Assembly (NCBI GenBank): GCA_016218575.1
Contig: JACRDN010000019.1
Location: 62,001-126,000, forward strand
Source of the DNA: Elusimicrobiota bacterium
GTDB taxonomy: Bacteria; Elusimicrobiota; Elusimicrobia; UBA1565; UBA9628
DNA: 64,000 nucleotides
Reading direction: 5' to 3'
The notes under the pieces were generated by a model. It saw only the letters and a program-made list of their open reading frames with translations. It searched no databases and had not been told where the DNA came from. The position numbers and the translations under genes were made by a program. Every line of letters begins with the position of its first letter. Position 1 is the stretch's first letter. Positions 32,028 through 62,114 of this stretch are shown one piece after another.

Positions 32028-32258
32028 ATGAGAGCTTTCGTGCTGTGCAGGCTGTCGCCGGGCAAGGAGCAGAAGGCCATTCAAAATATCCGCGCGGTGC
32101 AGGGGGTCAGCGAGGTGTTCGTGACCTTCGGGAGCTGGGACGTGATCCTGAGCGCCGAGGCCGACACCATGGACAAGCTCTGCGGCCTGGTCGTCAGCCG
32201 CGTGCGCGGCGTGGACGGGGTCTCGAGCACCGAGACCTTGGTCACCACGAACCTTTAG
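32028..32258 (+). CDS. stand-alone Lrp/AsnC effector (RAM) domain protein
   Basis: 76 residues from ATG 32028, one base after the ligase stop, with AAAGGAGG four bases upstream, the best ribosome-binding site in the window. It is only the C-terminal alpha/beta ligand-binding domain of Lrp/AsnC regulators (LCRLSPGKEQKAIQNI, VFVTFGSWDVILSAEA), with no DNA-binding helix-turn-helix. It may sense an amino acid, possibly glycine, or join hetero-oligomers with a full regulator encoded elsewhere. Confidence 0.87.
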   Translation: MRAFVLCRLSPGKEQKAIQNIRAVQGVSEVFVTFGSWDVILSAEADTMDKLCGLVVSRVRGVDGVSSTETLVTTNL

Positions 32259-32951
32259 CTAGGGCATCACCCGCCAGCGGAAGTAGCCCTCGTAGTAGAC
32301 CTCCGCGAAGGAGAGCTGGCTCTCCTTGTAGTGGGTGTGGAGAACCTGGCAGAGGAGCAGGTAGCCCTTTTCATCCGCGAACCGGCAGCGATGCGCCAAG
32401 CGGCAGGAGCTTTCGCGGTAATTGGCGTTCTCGGCCGGAAGCATGGAGTAGGTCCACTCGAAGGCCAGCGATCGGCCCCGGCGCAAGACGGCGACGGGAC
32501 CCGCTAGCTCTATGGAGTTTCCGGAGTAGTCCGCGCGAGAGGTCTCCAACTGCTGGTGGTAGCGTCCAAGGTCCTGCTCGTCCATGAAGAGCTTGCTGGT
32601 GTAGAGCTCCCAGCGTTTCTTCTTCAGGAAGGGGTTGTCGTCCACCCTGAATTCCAGCGCCGGAAGGATGTTTTTGGTGCCGTAATTTTCGAGTCCAAGT
32701 TGCTTCCAGATTCCGTTTGGGTTGTAAATCGTCTCCTCTTTGGAGGCGATGGCCGAGAGAATGTAGAGCATCCGGCTACCGTGGAGCCGGGGCTTGCCCG
32801 CCCTCTCGAATAGGGCCTTGGCCGACCGGAGGTCGAAATGGTCGAACTCGGACACGGCCTTGGGTGCGGCCTCCGGCGCCTGGGCCCGTGCCGGAATAGT
32901 CCCGAGTCCAAGGAAGAGCGTCATCAAAAACGGCAGGGCGGATTTCATCAT
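32259..32951 (-). CDS. secreted protein B1 of the duplicated A-B cassette
   Basis: 230 residues from ATG 32951 (or 229 from 32948), overlapping the upstream stop. The signal peptide (LPFLMTLFLGLGTIPARAQA) is clear. I recognise no family. It is clearly paralogous to the protein at 34566: both share LYILSAIA/YYLVAIAA near the N-terminus, LYTSKL/LYTNKL, FEWTY, and SCR..xRCRF followed by LLC and LHTHY, with FAxxYYEGY at the end. Three cysteines are conserved in the C-terminal third. The signal implies export to the periplasm or beyond. Confidence 0.72.
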   Translation of the reverse strand: MMKSALPFLMTLFLGLGTIPARAQAPEAAPKAVSEFDHFDLRSAKALFERAGKPRLHGSRMLYILSAIASKEETIYNPNGIWKQLGLENYGTKNILPALEFRVDDNPFLKKKRWELYTSKLFMDEQDLGRYHQQLETSRADYSGNSIELAGPVAVLRRGRSLAFEWTYSMLPAENANYRESSCRLAHRCRFADEKGYLLLCQVLHTHYKESQLSFAEVYYEGYFRWRVMP

Positions 32952-34555
32952 AGCGCGAATCCCCGGCACAGCCAGCCCCCGATCCAAAGCCCCAGGAGGA
33001 GCCCCAAGGCCGTGGCCCAGTAAACGCTCATGAGCCGGGGCGCGGTTTTGGCCTCCGGACTCCGAGTGCGCCGTGCCATCCAGGCGCCCATCGCCAAGCC
33101 CCCGGCAAGGGTCGCTATGAATATCAGGGAGATATGCGCGGAGGAGAAGATGTCGGGGACGGGACTTTCATGCCTCAATGCCTCATGGTAGGGAGAGAAG
33201 TATTCGCCTGCGAATCTCAGATAGGGCCGGACCATGGCATCAGCCCAGTAGGAATGCAGAAGATAAGTCAAGATCAACCCGGCTATGAACTTGGCGGATT
33301 TCATTTCCTGGAATAAGCCTTGCCAGGTTTTTCTGCCTGGCAAGGACGGCCGGGGGAGGCGGAGCCTGGCCGGCCATTCGGCCGCGCCGCGCAAGGAGGC
33401 CGGCGCGAGGGTTTTGATGAAATCGGCCCTAGATGCTTCTCCTCCTGAAAAAGCAGCCATGAGATCCTCCACCATGAGCCAGGGCTGGGCGGGCTTAAAG
33501 CCGCTCCGGGGCTTGAGCCCCTCGCCCCGGTTCCACATGACGGGAAGGACAGCGAGGCTTTCGCCCCAGCGTTCAAGGTGCTCCCGAACGATCCGGAAGC
33601 CGTCCTCCTTGGACTCGATGAAATGGAGCTTGAGCCGCCCGCGGCGCGCCGCGAGCTCGACCTCGGGCTCGAGCCTGATTCCTTTCAAGAAGGAGGGAAG
33701 GATCACGGCCGGGGCGGTTTGGCCCCGGGACGCGGCAAGCTTCATGCCGCGATAGTGCCGTTCCACGAAGGCCTGGGCGAAGAGCTCCTGGTCGGCCGCC
33801 ATGAGCGGGGCCCGGGCCGAGAGCTTCTTGAAGCCGCGCGCGGCGGCCCGGGCCAGGTTGGGCGAAACCGCCGCTCTGGACTGGGCCATAACCGCGGCGG
33901 GGACTGAAGTGATTTCATCCTGGAGGGCGGAGTCTATGTTTCCCATGATCCGCTGCAGGGCTCCGGACAAGGCCTGGCTGCGGTGCGTGAGGGACAGGGC
34001 GTGCGTTCGCAGCAGGAGCCGGTAGCTCTGTTCCATGTCCTGCCCCTGTTCGGCCTCTATGAAGTCCAGGTAGAACTTGGACAGGCGCCCCAGACCCAGC
34101 ATCGCCTCCTCGACCTCGTCATTCTCCAGCGCCCCCGGGTTTTGGGCCTCCTGGCACAGCTCGGCGGCGGACTCCGCGAGGTAGGCCTTGGCCCTTTCCT
34201 CGGCCAATTCCAATAAGAGCGGGCTCCTGAACAGATTGAATGCCAGGTTTCGCGCCGTGATCCCGAAGTCTTGCTGGAGAACGTAGAGGATCACGTCCAT
34301 TTTCTTCTGCCTCAGGGCGTCGCCCGTGGGCATGCTCCAAATCGCCTTGAGGATAGGCCCCGCCGGAGAGCGGCCGGGGCCGCGCTTGAGGAAGGCCCGG
34401 CGCAGGTCGGTGGCCACCAGGTACGACCGGCCGAGGTTGAGCCGCGCCTGCCTGGTCGCGAAATTGCCGCGATAGGCCCAGCCGGCATGGAGAAAGGCGG
34501 GGCGGATGGCCGAGGCCAGAAAAAGGGCGAGGGCCAGCCGAGGTTTCACTTTCAT
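32948..34555 (-). CDS. exported membrane protein A1 of the duplicated A-B cassette
   Basis: 535 residues with a signal peptide or N-terminal anchor, a ~400-residue soluble part and three C-terminal membrane helices (about 425-445, 470-490 and 507-530). I recognise no family. It aligns without gaps to the protein at 35273 over the first 170 residues: QKKMDVILYVLQQDFG at 83-98 against QRKLDAILYVLQEDFG, and LGRLSKFYLDF at 155-165 in both. PAVILPS and ENLAVLP-like segments also match. Stop and B1 start overlap (ATGA). Confidence 0.72.
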   Translation of the reverse strand: MKVKPRLALALFLASAIRPAFLHAGWAYRGNFATRQARLNLGRSYLVATDLRRAFLKRGPGRSPAGPILKAIWSMPTGDALRQKKMDVILYVLQQDFGITARNLAFNLFRSPLLLELAEERAKAYLAESAAELCQEAQNPGALENDEVEEAMLGLGRLSKFYLDFIEAEQGQDMEQSYRLLLRTHALSLTHRSQALSGALQRIMGNIDSALQDEITSVPAAVMAQSRAAVSPNLARAAARGFKKLSARAPLMAADQELFAQAFVERHYRGMKLAASRGQTAPAVILPSFLKGIRLEPEVELAARRGRLKLHFIESKEDGFRIVREHLERWGESLAVLPVMWNRGEGLKPRSGFKPAQPWLMVEDLMAAFSGGEASRADFIKTLAPASLRGAAEWPARLRLPRPSLPGRKTWQGLFQEMKSAKFIAGLILTYLLHSYWADAMVRPYLRFAGEYFSPYHEALRHESPVPDIFSSAHISLIFIATLAGGLAMGAWMARRTRSPEAKTAPRLMSVYWATALGLLLGLWIGGWLCRGFAL

Positions 34556-34565
34556 TCGCCGGTTA

Positions 34566-35276
34566 TTACTCGAAGGCCTCGGCGCCTTGGTAGCGTTGTG
34601 CCAGGGAATAGCCTTCGTAATATATGTCCGCGAACGTCAAAGCCTCGCCCGTGTAATGGGTGTGTAATATCTTGCACAGGAGGCTTTCCTTCTTATCATC
34701 AACGAACCGGCAGCGGTAGCTTTGGCGGCAAGAGGCCTCGGGCTTGTCGCCGTCCGCGGGCTGGGTGTAAGTCCACTCGAAGGCGATGGAGCCGCCCGCG
34801 ACGCTGATGAGGATTTCCCCGAAGGGAGCGTCCGAGTCGCCGCTCTTCGTTTGCAATACCTTAGTGACATAGCGTCCCAATTGACCGGGGTCAAGTTTAT
34901 TCGTGTACAGCACCCATCGGGGAGTCAGGCCGAAGGCTTGCAAGGCGATTCTAAATTTTAGGCGCGGAATGATGCTGTTGCTGGAAATGAGCTGACCGGC
35001 GTCGTTTCTCCTTTCCATGGGCTGATAGAGCCCTTCGCCATTGTACAAGGCCTTGTTTTTGCGCGCGGCTATTGCCACCAGATAGTACGAGCCCGCCAGA
35101 TGCTTGGCGTCCGGCTCGGTTCCCTTTGAGAACAATTGACTTGCCATCCCCAGATTAAAGGCGCTCATGTCCATCCGAGGCGCGCCTTGTATGGGCAGAG
35201 GAGCGGCTTCGTGGGCCAAGGCCGCTCCGGGAAGGCCCGCTAGAGCCATCAAGGCAAGGGAGCGCAGGGATTTCAT
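34566..35276 (-). CDS. secreted protein B2 of the duplicated A-B cassette
   Basis: 236 residues from ATG 35276, which overlaps the A2 stop (ATGA). Signal peptide LALMALAGLPGAALA. Paralogue of B1: conserved FEWTY, SCRQSYRCRFVDDKKESLLCKILHTHY split over residues ~185-215, and IYYEGY. Longer in-frame starts reach back to 35675 but would run through A2 and lack a signal. Ten bases separate its stop from A1, so all four cassette genes are probably one transcript. Confidence 0.72.
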   Translation of the reverse strand: MKSLRSLALMALAGLPGAALAHEAAPLPIQGAPRMDMSAFNLGMASQLFSKGTEPDAKHLAGSYYLVAIAARKNKALYNGEGLYQPMERRNDAGQLISSNSIIPRLKFRIALQAFGLTPRWVLYTNKLDPGQLGRYVTKVLQTKSGDSDAPFGEILISVAGGSIAFEWTYTQPADGDKPEASCRQSYRCRFVDDKKESLLCKILHTHYTGEALTFADIYYEGYSLAQRYQGAEAFE

Positions 35277-36931
35277 TGCAAAAGAAACAGTATCGTCAGA
35301 AGAGATACCACCACCATCACGGCGTATATCCAGAGCAGGCGGCTCAAGGGTTTCGGATTTGGATTTCGCAAGGGAAGCAGAAAAATCGAGGCTATAATTC
35401 CCACCGCTACGGCGGCACTCGCGGCTAGAACGGCGATCTGAAAGGCATTCCCCGCGTTCCCCGCGGTCAAGGCCCGCAAATCCTGGACGTGATACGGCTC
35501 GATGTAGCCGGTGAAAGCCTGGAAGTGGTCGGCCAATAGCCGGGACCAGACGGCGAGGTGCGCGCAAGTCGCGGCGATTCCGAGTGAGAGGGGAATGGGC
35601 CAGGAGGTCGGCCATTTCCAGTGGAAGGAGGTCAAATCTTCCAGCCAAGGGCCTTTTTTCCATTGCAGTTTCCATTTAATATTCCATCGTCTTTGGGGAG
35701 CGTTTTGGGAGCCTACCGGTAAATGGACGGGCGGGATTCCTCCGGCGTAGGCCCGCATCAACTGCGCCGACATGGCGTAGGGGTTCTCCGGCGCGAAGGG
35801 ATGGGCGAGTTTGAGTACGGCGCCGTCGTTCAGGGTGGCCGGAAGCACGGCGAGGTTCTCGCCCTGAGAGGCGTGATGCGAGGAGATCGCGGAGAGGGCT
35901 TCGTCCTCGTTATCCGCGAAAATCAGAGCGAATCGCCCGCTGTGAACGGCCAGTTCGACTTCGCTGTTTATGCCAAGGGAGGGACCGTTGAGGGAACTGG
36001 GAAGGATGACCGCCGGCACGGCCCCCTTGCGCATGGCCGAGAGCATGGAGCCGTAAAACGCTTCGATAAAGGCCTTGGCGAAAACGACCTCGTCCTGGAC
36101 ATCGGGAGGGGTCTTTTTCCTCAGGGATCGGTAGCCCTTGAGGGCCCGGGCCGCGATCTTGGGCGATACCAAAGACTTGGGCCGGGGCCTCAAGAGCGCC
36201 GCCAGGCGCGCAAGCCGGCCTTCTTGGGGGGCTAGGGCCAGGACCGTGGTCGGCCGCGACCTTAGCTCATCCTCTACTTGCGTATCGGTGATTTCGGCTG
36301 ATCTCTCGATATCCTCGATCAGGGGAGCGAGGCCGCTATTAGCTAGGGTTAAAGTCTCTCTGGCTTCGATTTGCAGAGCTTCTCTATACGCTTGAGGGAC
36401 CAGGCTTTGATACGGCCTTTCCTCGGTCTCGTCCAGGAAATCCAGGTAGAACTTGGACAGACGCCCCAGGGCCAGCGTGGGCTCCGTGATTCCCAGGTCG
36501 CCCCATTTGCTTTGGTCCCGCATGATTTCCATCAAATCGCCGGCCAGAAGATTGAGGTACCGCTGGGCCCGGATCTCGGCCACGCGAAAGAGGTTGGGCT
36601 CCCGGGAGGCCCTATCTTTGATGTTTTCCCAAGTCACGCCGAAGTCTTCCTGCAGCACGTATAAAATGGCGTCCAATTTCCTCTGCTTGAGCGCGCCCGG
36701 TTCCATGGCCAGAATTTGGGTGAGAAGCGGCCCGGCCTGCTTCTCGGCGTCTATCGTGCAGTTCTGGAAGGCGAGCCTCAACTCCCCCAAGAAAATGGGA
36801 TTGGGATTGATGATGCGCAGGCGGGCCTCGATGGTCTTCATGCTTGTCCAGGCCCAATTCTGGGCGGCGAAGAGGTCCCCGCGGCGGGGCCCCGGCGCAA
36901 GGAGGGCGATAATCAGCAAAGCTTTTTTCAC
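35273..36931 (-). CDS. exported membrane protein A2 of the duplicated A-B cassette
   Basis: 552 residues from a GTG start. It has an N-terminal signal, a helical soluble domain with QRKLDAILYVLQEDFG at 83-98 and LGRLSKFYLDF at 155-165, a second domain with VPAVILPSSLNG and ENLAVLPATLN, and three C-terminal membrane helices, the last reaching the C-terminus. First gene of the A2-B2-A1-B1 run. There is no enzyme motif that I can see. The upstream -10-like TAAAAT lies nine bases from the start, without a -35 match. Confidence 0.72.
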   Translation of the reverse strand: MKKALLIIALLAPGPRRGDLFAAQNWAWTSMKTIEARLRIINPNPIFLGELRLAFQNCTIDAEKQAGPLLTQILAMEPGALKQRKLDAILYVLQEDFGVTWENIKDRASREPNLFRVAEIRAQRYLNLLAGDLMEIMRDQSKWGDLGITEPTLALGRLSKFYLDFLDETEERPYQSLVPQAYREALQIEARETLTLANSGLAPLIEDIERSAEITDTQVEDELRSRPTTVLALAPQEGRLARLAALLRPRPKSLVSPKIAARALKGYRSLRKKTPPDVQDEVVFAKAFIEAFYGSMLSAMRKGAVPAVILPSSLNGPSLGINSEVELAVHSGRFALIFADNEDEALSAISSHHASQGENLAVLPATLNDGAVLKLAHPFAPENPYAMSAQLMRAYAGGIPPVHLPVGSQNAPQRRWNIKWKLQWKKGPWLEDLTSFHWKWPTSWPIPLSLGIAATCAHLAVWSRLLADHFQAFTGYIEPYHVQDLRALTAGNAGNAFQIAVLAASAAVAVGIIASIFLLPLRNPNPKPLSRLLWIYAVMVVVSLLTILFLLQ

Positions 36932-37030
36932 AGCTTGTAAATTTTATCGAAATTCGGTCGGCCGCCTTTAGGCCTTTAGGGGAAGGAAACCGCGGGATTT
37001 TGGCGCCGCGATAATGGGACCTTTGGCCTA

Positions 37031-37072
37031 GGTTATCCACAAAAACTCCCCGCGAAGTTCCTGTGGATAACC
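37031..37072. repeat. dispersed DnaA-box hairpin, copy 2
   Basis: GGTTATCCACA (37031-37041) and TGTGGATAACC (37062-37072) form a perfect 11-bp inverted repeat around a 20-base centre. Each arm holds a perfect DnaA box TTATCCACA. The reverse complement aligns to 9504-9541. The stretch 36932-37030 holds nothing else clear apart from two tandem copies of GCCTTTAG near 36965. Confidence 0.65.
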
Positions 37073-37106
37073 GTGTCCGCCGCGGCCGGCGCGGCGCATC
37101 CAAAGG

Positions 37107-37135
37107 TTGCCGACAGCGGGAAAATCTGTTAAATT
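37107..37135 (+). promoter_or_regulatory. promoter of the response regulators, probably leaderless
   Basis: TTGCCG (37107-37112), 17 bases, TAAATT (37130-37135), then six bases to ATG 37142. Confidence 0.55.
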
Positions 37136-37141
37136 AGGGAC

Positions 37142-37576
37142 ATGACGGCTGAGGGAGGGCTGGCGCGGCCCCAGGATAAGCTCGTAATGGTCATTGACGA
37201 CGATGAGAGCGTGCGGGAGCTCCTGGAGTTCATCGTGGTCAAGGAGGGCTTCAAGGTGTGTTCGGCCTCGGATGGGGAGGAGGGTGTCAACAAGATACAA
37301 GAGCTGATCCCGGATCTGGTCATCCTGGACTTGATGCTTCCGCGCTACGGCGGATTCGAGGTTTTGCGCCAACTGCAGACCGGCGCCACGGCCGGGATAC
37401 CCATCGTCGTCATCACCGGGCGCTACACGGATCGGACCACGGCGGAGATGATCCGGCAGGAGTCGAACGTCATGGATTTTTTGGAGAAGCCCATCAAGCC
37501 GCAGGTGCTGGGCGTGACCTTGCACAAAATACTCAAGACCGCCCCGCCGGAGCTGTCAGGCGGCACAGGAAGCTAA
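37142..37576 (+). CDS. single-domain response regulator
   Basis: A 144-residue receiver domain without output domain. It has the acidic pocket IDDDES (20-22), phosphoacceptor D63 in LVILDLMLPRYGG, T/S in VVITGR and the conserved Lys in FLEKPIKP. It probably acts by protein contact. It is one base apart from a second receiver gene of ~45% similar layout, indicating tandem duplication. No cognate kinase is adjacent; orphan kinases lie at 4278-6262 and 50070. Confidence 0.92.
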   Translation: MTAEGGLARPQDKLVMVIDDDESVRELLEFIVVKEGFKVCSASDGEEGVNKIQELIPDLVILDLMLPRYGGFEVLRQLQTGATAGIPIVVITGRYTDRTTAEMIRQESNVMDFLEKPIKPQVLGVTLHKILKTAPPELSGGTGS

Positions 37577-60914: not shown

Positions 60915-62114
60915 ATGAAATTATTGGAATACGAGTCGAAAGAGCTCTTCCGAGACCGGGCTGTCCCGGTCCCTCCCTCCGGCGGCGTCATCAAGACCAT
61001 AGCACGGCTGCCGGCGGCGTTGAGGAAAGCCGGCAAGGGGCCATGGGTGATCAAGGCCCAGGTCCTGGCCGGAGGCCGGGGCAAGGCCGGCGGCATCAAG
61101 CTTGCCAAGACCCCGCGCGAGGCGCGGGAAGCGGCCAAGTCCATTCTTGGCATGAATCTGGTCACCCATCAGACCCAGGGGCATGGCATCAAGGTGCGTG
61201 AGGTTCTGGTCGAGGCGGGAGCCAAAATCGAGCGCGAGATCTATTTTTCCGTGGTCCTGGACCGTCAAAGCGCTGGCCCCTGCATCATCGCCTCGGCCCA
61301 AGGCGGCATGGAGATCGAGAAACTGGCCGAGGAGAACCCGCAGGCCATCCTGCGTCAGCCGGTCGACCTCTGCGCGGGTCTCGCCGACCACGCGGCTCGG
61401 ACTATGGCCTTCGCCTTGGGCCTGCCGGCGGAAAGGATCGGGGAGTTCTGCAAAGTGGCCAAGGCCTTGGTCCGGCTTTTCGTGGATTACGACTGCAGCC
61501 TGGTCGAGGTCAATCCCCTGGTCTTGACCCCCAAGGGTCTTCTCGCCCTGGACGGCAAGGTGATCACGGACGATAACGCGCTTTTCCGCCACCCGGACTT
61601 GGCCAAGAAAAAGGATCATGAGGCCACAAGCCTCGAGCTGGAGGCCAAGAAGGCGGAGCTTTCCTACATAGGCCTCGACGGCAGCATCGGCTGCATGGTC
61701 AACGGCGCGGGGCTCGCCATGGGGACGATGGACACCATTCTTCTTGCCGGAGGCAGCCCCGCGAATTTCCTCGACGTCGGGGGCTCCGCCACCGAGGAGC
61801 GCGTGACCAAGGCTTTCCAGATCATCCTCAAGGACCCCAAGGTCAAGGCCGTGATGGTCAACATATTCGGGGGCATCGTCAAATGCGATCTTATCGCCTC
61901 CGGGATACTGGGAGCGATGAAGAAGGTGAAGCTCAAGGTGCCCCTGGTGGTGCGCCTCCAGGGAACCAACGTCGAGCAAGGGCGGGCCCTTCTCTCCCGC
62001 TCGGGGGTTTCCCTGATTCAGGCCGAGGACTTGTGGGAAGCGGCGCAGAAGGCCGTGGCGGCGGTGCCAGGCACGCTGCGCGAGCCAGGCACCGAGAGGA
62101 GGATCCGCCCATGA
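60915..62114 (+). CDS. sucC: succinyl-CoA synthetase beta subunit (ADP-forming)
   Basis: A 399-residue ATP-grasp protein that binds nucleotide and couples succinyl-CoA to [22 protein letters not shown] starts it; [20 protein letters not shown] binds nucleotide; [20 protein letters not shown] holds metal ligands; [15 protein letters not shown] binds substrate. Its stop overlaps the sucD start (ATGA). Confidence 0.95.

Follow-up and report, generated by a model that had tools for sequence, protein, structure and literature searches.

Lon protease (P) domains contain a helix alpha3 that leads into their second subdomain (PMC9569914), and in LonC this helix carries the catalytic lysine, K625 (PMC3391209). 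In another setting, C-type-lectin/FGE domains diversified by diversity-generating retroelements (DGRs), some of them on kinase-bearing proteins, have been proposed to sense antigens in multicellular bacteria (PMC10907252). Here we describe a four-gene locus, A2-B2-A1-B1, whose products and paralogues recall both systems. It lies in a 64,000-nt window (the whole stretch of DNA analysed, positions 62,001 to 126,000 of contig JACRDN010000019.1 of the Elusimicrobiota bacterium assembly GCA_016218575.1). The original prediction had taken A and B to be unrecognisable. We found instead that A holds what looks like a piece of a Lon protease domain, and that a further B paralogue, B3, is fused to an FGE/C-type-lectin domain. 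By every library searched A and B are new families, and the Lon piece and the lectin fusion are known parts in a new arrangement. We suggest that A and B may form a recognition pair of the cell envelope.

Two A-B units in tandem

The locus consists of the following features:

35273..36931, minus strand: A2, 552 amino acids (aa), GTG start; predicted exported protein with C-terminal membrane helices (open reading frame (ORF), 35% identity to A1, signal-peptide-like N-terminus by eye, hydropathy)
34566..35276, minus strand: B2, 236 aa, small, predicted secreted protein, ATGA overlap with A2 (ORF, 36% identity to B1)
32948..34555, minus strand: A1, 535 aa, paralogue of A2 (ORF, BLASTP, AlphaFold2 (AF2) model with a mean predicted local distance difference test score (pLDDT) of 65.8)
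32259..32951, minus strand: B1, 230 aa, paralogue of B2, ATGA overlap with A1 (ORF, BLASTP)
32259..37141, no strand: whole insert between lrp, which ends at 32258, and the response-regulator gene RR1, which starts at 37142 (tblastn of window genes on relatives)

The layout is as first described, with four minus-strand genes, ATGA at A2/B2 and at A1/B1, and a gap of about 10 nt between B2 and A1. The two A proteins share 35% identity over 381 aa (BLASTP, E 2e-53) and the two B proteins 36% over 222 aa (BLASTP, E 4e-42), both far beyond chance. Every motif listed in the original prediction (FEWTY, SCR..RCRF, LLC, LHTHY, and YYEGY) is common to B1 and B2. The first 170 residues of A2 and A1, said there to align without gaps, contain a few small ones, and a long ungapped block begins only at about A2 residue 81. 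The GC content of the four genes is 0.70-0.83 at third codon positions versus 0.41-0.49 at second positions, a contrast as in coding DNA, and we therefore consider all four to be coding.

The A-B pair recurs elsewhere in the genome

The source genome (G000; 2.82 Mb in 23 contigs; other genomes carry G-labels too) was searched together with others of its lineage, using profiles of A and B on 341 genomes of the phylum and a class-wide search for B on 235 genomes. Besides the duplicated cassette of the locus, which was the extent of the duplication as first seen, contig C23 of G000 bears a third, diverged pair in the same order, A3 (658 aa) followed 1 nt on by B3 (460 aa). Every B thus adjoins an A, and the proposal that the two are linked and were duplicated as a unit gains from this third pair. 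Identity is 37.7% between A1 and A2 versus 27-31% to A3, and 37.4% between B1 and B2 versus 23-28% to B3, so that the A and B copies diverge concordantly. Since their pairwise distances give the same pattern, an old A-B pair appears to have undergone at least two duplications as a whole, the latest in tandem.

Two more A proteins stand alone. A4 (G000 contig C16, 612 aa, just before prfB) lacks both membrane helices and a B neighbour. In G026, from another genus of the same family, the A region is joined to a protein kinase (PF00069, E 4.7e-33) in a protein whose start resembles a signal peptide, which lacks membrane helices and has no B gene in its vicinity:

L023 6435-9263, genome G026: A-kinase fusion, 942 aa, C-terminal Ser/Thr kinase domain

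This fusion resembles the A proteins in its signal-peptide-like start and in its two domains, termed D1 and D2 (the latter Lon-like, see below), but differs from A1-A3 in having a Ser/Thr kinase domain in place of the membrane helices and in lacking a B neighbour. With such a start and no membrane helix, its kinase would be exported. PADLOC matched only this kinase part and neither A nor B, and we dropped membership of a defence system for that reason. A tree separated A1-A3 from A4 and the G026 protein, with a long-branch warning, and left the order within A1-A3 unsettled.

Among all five A proteins, B is found beside the three with C-terminal membrane helices and beside neither of the two without. 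For co-occurrence of A and B, offered as a check on a two-component system, the counts are three of three B proteins adjoining an A, all in one genome, and two of five A proteins, both lacking helices, that have no B. The B profile had no match outside G000 among the phylum genomes, in agreement with the class-wide search, and full A proteins occurred only in G000 and G026. With B known from one genome and A from two, asking whether A and B stand apart in most genomes has little power. No relative was found in genome contigs or viral contigs scanned with A or B alignments, or in plasmids searched with B2. Three weak matches were judged to be due to chance: one to B in G138 (E 0.0024; a 55-aa frame with a stop), one to A in G109 (in an ORF resembling a glycosidase), and one to A in G211 (a short frame).

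A Lon-like segment without catalytic residues in A

Scans of A and B with Pfam, NCBIfam, PADLOC, and PHROGs gave nothing above chance. Profile comparison, however, pointed to the following segments:

35894..36082, minus strand: Lon-like segment of A2, about residues 284-346; putatively the alpha3 helix plus the second P subdomain of Lon, with Phe for the catalytic Lys (Lon profile matches, PDB LonC E 2.7e-5, hhalign 93%, residue comparison)
33593..33781, minus strand: Lon-like segment of A1, spanning roughly residues 259-321, likewise with Phe for the catalytic Lys (profile matches, residue comparison, AF2 secondary structure)

The A profile matched 24 further genomes (best E 1.3e-6, in one genome), always within the same profile stretch. 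Nine of these loci were opened: L024 is Lon_C by Pfam and six others show the Lon active-site motifs GDSA and GG.N.K, L060 has the matching C-terminal segment, and L061 could not be parsed. In a PDB search the only significant matches of the A profile were to Thermus/Meiothermus LonC (E 2.7e-5, chain residues 624-687), and hhalign gave a probability of 93%. Profiles made from A1-A3 alone, or from A4 and the G026 protein alone, picked the same Lon segment, weakly. In the AF2 model of A1 (mean pLDDT around 66), D1 and D2 are mostly at 70-90 and the segment runs helix-strand-helix-strand-helix, as expected. The assignment of about 60 residues of A to helix alpha3 and the second subdomain of a Lon/LonC protease domain is thus supported but not proven.

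The residue aligned to LonC K625 is Phe in A1 and A2 and Tyr in A3, A4, and the G026 protein (5/5 members), and the Lon motif GG..K reads FA.A[FY] in A. No GDSA-type serine motif was seen in A, which does not provide the Ser-Lys dyad of MEROPS S16, and Pfam and NCBIfam scans gave no AAA domain in it. Because the catalytic-lysine position holds Phe or Tyr and GG..K is replaced, A cannot act by the Lon catalytic dyad.

Several Lon proteins of relatives have signal-peptide-like starts themselves. In same-family genomes, L024 (4849-8343), L056, L058, L059, and L063 encode LonC-like proteins of about 1150-1200 aa in which the Walker A Lys is changed to Arg and the Ser/Lys protease motifs are intact, possibly representing an exported ATP-independent Lon. 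In G000, L068 (contig C17:72000-78000) encodes a LonA-type protease of about 1050 aa with an intact Walker A motif; it has a signal-peptide-like start and a hydrophobic segment with a basic cluster after it, and is perhaps membrane-anchored with the protease inside.

Predicted topology of A

Hydropathy and charge scans located the membrane helices of A:

35282..35431, minus strand: two strong membrane helices of A2, residues 501-519 and 532-550, basic loop between
32978..33133, minus strand: two strong membrane helices of A1, residues 475-493 and 508-526, basic loop between

Three C-terminal helices had been proposed. Two of them are strong, but the first is marginal (hydropathy 1.07 in A1 and 1.52 in A2 versus about 2-2.4 for the others). 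All five A proteins have signal-peptide-like N-termini, read from the sequence. Such an N-terminus, together with two strong helices separated by a basic loop, agrees with a soluble part outside the cytoplasm, and we prefer two spanning helices over three, a topology predicted from hydropathy and charge. A has no conserved cysteine, and hence any conserved disulphide would lie within B.

B and the lectin domain of B3

B has a signal-peptide-like start, and its cysteines fall in one segment of each locus copy:

34674..34730, minus strand: cysteine segment of B2, with C183, C189, and C201 (alignment, cysteine positions)
32349..32405, minus strand: cysteine segment of B1, with C183, C189, and C201 (alignment, cysteine positions)

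The conserved cysteines noted earlier are confirmed for C189 and C201, invariant in B1, B2, and B3, but not for C183, which is absent from B3. B is likely to carry one disulphide.

The C-terminal domain of B3 is of FGE type (PF03781, E 1.9e-45), its best PDB match being the Treponema denticola variable protein TvpA (E 1.3e-29). The B3 stretch aligned to the catalytic cysteine pair of a bacterial FGE contains no cysteine. From its residues, then, the domain reads as a ligand-binding C-type-lectin domain and not as an enzyme.

One reverse transcriptase was found in G000. The element to which it belongs spans contig C17:44744-49010 and has these features:

L099 4745-6817: kinase-FGE gene
L099 6682-6811: variable repeat (VR), at the end of the kinase-FGE protein, 2.1 kb upstream
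L099 7767-9011: reverse transcriptase frame
L099 8828-8957: template repeat (TR), beside the reverse transcriptase

Between the TR and this VR, 13 of 24 adenines differ and 1 of 99 other sites, which at the level of sequence is the signature of a DGR. Its target carries, after a signal-peptide-like start, a Ser/Thr kinase joined to an FGE domain, and the kinase is 46% identical to that of the A-kinase fusion of G026. When the end of B3 was compared with the same TR, 19/24 adenines and 14/99 other sites differed (p 1.8e-9); third codon positions account for 11 of those 14. In this B3 resembles a former DGR target, or the target of a related template. The adenine bias could also owe something to selection acting on these surface positions. 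With 14 differing non-A sites, we rejected B3 as an intact target of the present template.

A variable insertion site

We compared the site in seven genomes of six other genera (G001, G021, G037, G026, G042, G036, and G002). In G001, G021, and G037 the genes gcvT-gcvH-gcvP-lplA-lrp-RR1-RR2-m50 are contiguous, with an lrp-RR1 gap of about 20-80 nt. In G026, lrp is followed directly by a single response-regulator gene and m50, and in G042 m50 comes after lrp; G002 keeps gcv-lplA-lrp but not the remainder. In G036 the lrp/RR1 junction (L085 3483-6900) holds two tandem paralogous polytopic membrane genes, glycosyltransferase-like. Because the junction is empty or otherwise filled in other genera, the A2-B2-A1-B1 cassette is most simply explained as a lineage-specific gain at a variable lrp/RR1 junction.

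As the junction is filled in G036 too, it may be an insertion hotspot. Between gcvP and lplA the same genome has an insertion that encodes an exported, repeat-containing protein of 761 aa (L085 7631-9916). In the window, the B1 stop codon abuts that of lrp. A scan of the locus for promoters and terminators found nothing promoter-like, and terminator-like sites were about as frequent as expected by chance. Between A2 and RR1 lie two inverted perfect DnaA-box-like sites (TTATCCACA; 37033-37041, plus strand, and 37062-37070, minus strand), the only such sites in the window, with a chance expectation of 0.30.

A and B as a possible envelope recognition pair

We put at roughly 35% the probability that A and B act together in recognition at the envelope, A as a membrane-anchored scaffold bearing a dead Lon subdomain and B as its secreted, ligand-facing partner. 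Two A-B units, gained between lrp and the response-regulator pair, would be co-transcribed. After export, A would stay anchored through its C-terminal membrane helices, leaving both of its soluble domains, helical D1 and Lon-like D2, outside the cytoplasm; the core of D2 would be helix alpha3 with the second Lon P subdomain, minus the catalytic residues. This Lon remnant would offer a protein-interaction surface, making A a non-proteolytic scaffold that keeps B at the envelope, where B, or the lectin domain fused in B3, would contact an external ligand. Secretion and topology are predicted from signal peptides and charges; physical A-B contact, sensing, and ligand recognition we infer. The pairing counts for such a role, because there are three pairs of the same order and B occurs only beside a membrane-anchored A. 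The concordant divergence of the A and B copies, the Lon-like segment with its missing lysine, and the adenine-biased lectin domain of B3 count for it too. The domain exchanges (A with a kinase, B with FGE, a kinase with the FGE domain of the DGR) are consistent with surface recognition but suggestive only.

Several observations weigh against this proposal. Kinase and FGE domains are promiscuous, which makes the fusion links weak. A occurs without B in 2/5 cases, these being the forms without membrane helices. Foldseek of the full-length A1 AF2 model against PDB gave no significant match, so that the Lon assignment stays supported rather than proven. The AF2 model of B1 was unusable (mean pLDDT 32.7), and B1 and B2 have no Pfam match and lack the FGE/C-type-lectin domain. 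Finally, if the marginal first helix of A did span the membrane, the charges would place the soluble domains in the cytoplasm. A could in that case be an inner-membrane protein with three spanning helices and cytoplasmic domains, and B an unrelated secreted product of the same operon: basic stretches precede helix 1 and separate helices 2 and 3, and if all three span, the part of A ahead of helix 1 would lie inside by the positive-inside rule. We consider this quite improbable, given the signal-peptide-like N-termini of all five A members, the marginal helix 1, and the fact that two spanning helices satisfy both signal peptide and charges.

A serious competitor, even if we hold it to be unlikely, is that A and B evolve fast, are restricted to the lineage, and are exported products of one operon that do not bind each other. 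The operon would have been copied as one piece, and the pairing would then tell nothing about a complex. B is present in one and A in two of the 341 genomes, one operon duplication suffices for the tandem, and A can stand alone; yet order and spacing are kept in three pairs, among which A3-B3 is deeply diverged and unlinked, and A with membrane helices always comes with B. The resemblance of the D2 segment to a Lon P domain, or its derivation from one, would also suit an envelope quality-control factor, in which A would use a Lon-derived, non-proteolytic domain to bind exported proteins that are unfolded, with B as either an adaptor or a client that is protected. Lon-type proteins of relatives, with signal-peptide-like starts and the Walker A Lys-to-Arg change, make exported Lon-like proteins plausible. 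We nevertheless find this role improbable, if less so than a cytoplasmic A, as A retains just half of the P domain, without the substrate chamber or the dyad, and a housekeeping chaperone would not usually be confined to one or two genera. The least likely explanation is an antagonism pair under diversification, in which B would be a toxin-like effector that is secreted and A a membrane-bound protein conferring immunity to it or exporting it. Tandem divergent copies, a small secreted B with cysteines, a membrane-anchored A, and a variable insertion site are what one would expect of it, but Pfam, NCBIfam, and PADLOC gave no toxin, trafficking, or immunity family for A or B, and A is large, has soluble domains, and has homologues that lack B or are fused to a kinase.

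The recognition-pair proposal can be carried further, to a surface recognition system of one lineage assembled from exchangeable exported parts: a dead Lon subdomain on an anchor, a secreted partner, a hypermutated lectin domain, and an exported kinase. Membrane-anchored A would receive the state of B, and B3 would have been diversified by a retroelement. This is a long shot, which we rate below a cytoplasmic A and above a toxin pair. If recognition is the right reading, half of a Lon protease domain, stripped of its catalytic residues, has been put to non-enzymatic use outside the cytoplasm, together with a secreted partner of which one paralogue carries a hypermutation-marked domain. This would be a concrete, testable example of the way in which surface-recognition proteins arise in a little-studied lineage, and four unrecognised genes would have become a family pair with a partial fold assignment. 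The most modest reading still yields a new pair of protein families whose boundaries and copy number are defined and for which occupied and empty sites have been compared.

Comparison with known systems

With LonC (Meiothermus taiwanensis, PDB 7eux/7euy; related 4fwd; PMC3391209) A shares about 60 residues, matching LonC 624-687 and showing the same helix/strand order in the A1 model. It departs from LonC in having no AAA+ part, no detected first P subdomain, and Phe or Tyr for the catalytic lysine in 5/5 members, and in the addition of a helical D1 and membrane helices. The TvpA-type FGE/C-type-lectin variable proteins of DGRs (Treponema denticola TvpA, PDB 2y3c; PMC10907252) are matched by B3 in domain and in adenine-biased differences from the G000 DGR template; B1 and B2 differ from them in that the lectin domain is absent, and the B domain itself is without known relative. 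The nearest published idea to a surface-recognition role of A and B is the antigen-sensor proposal of PMC10907252.

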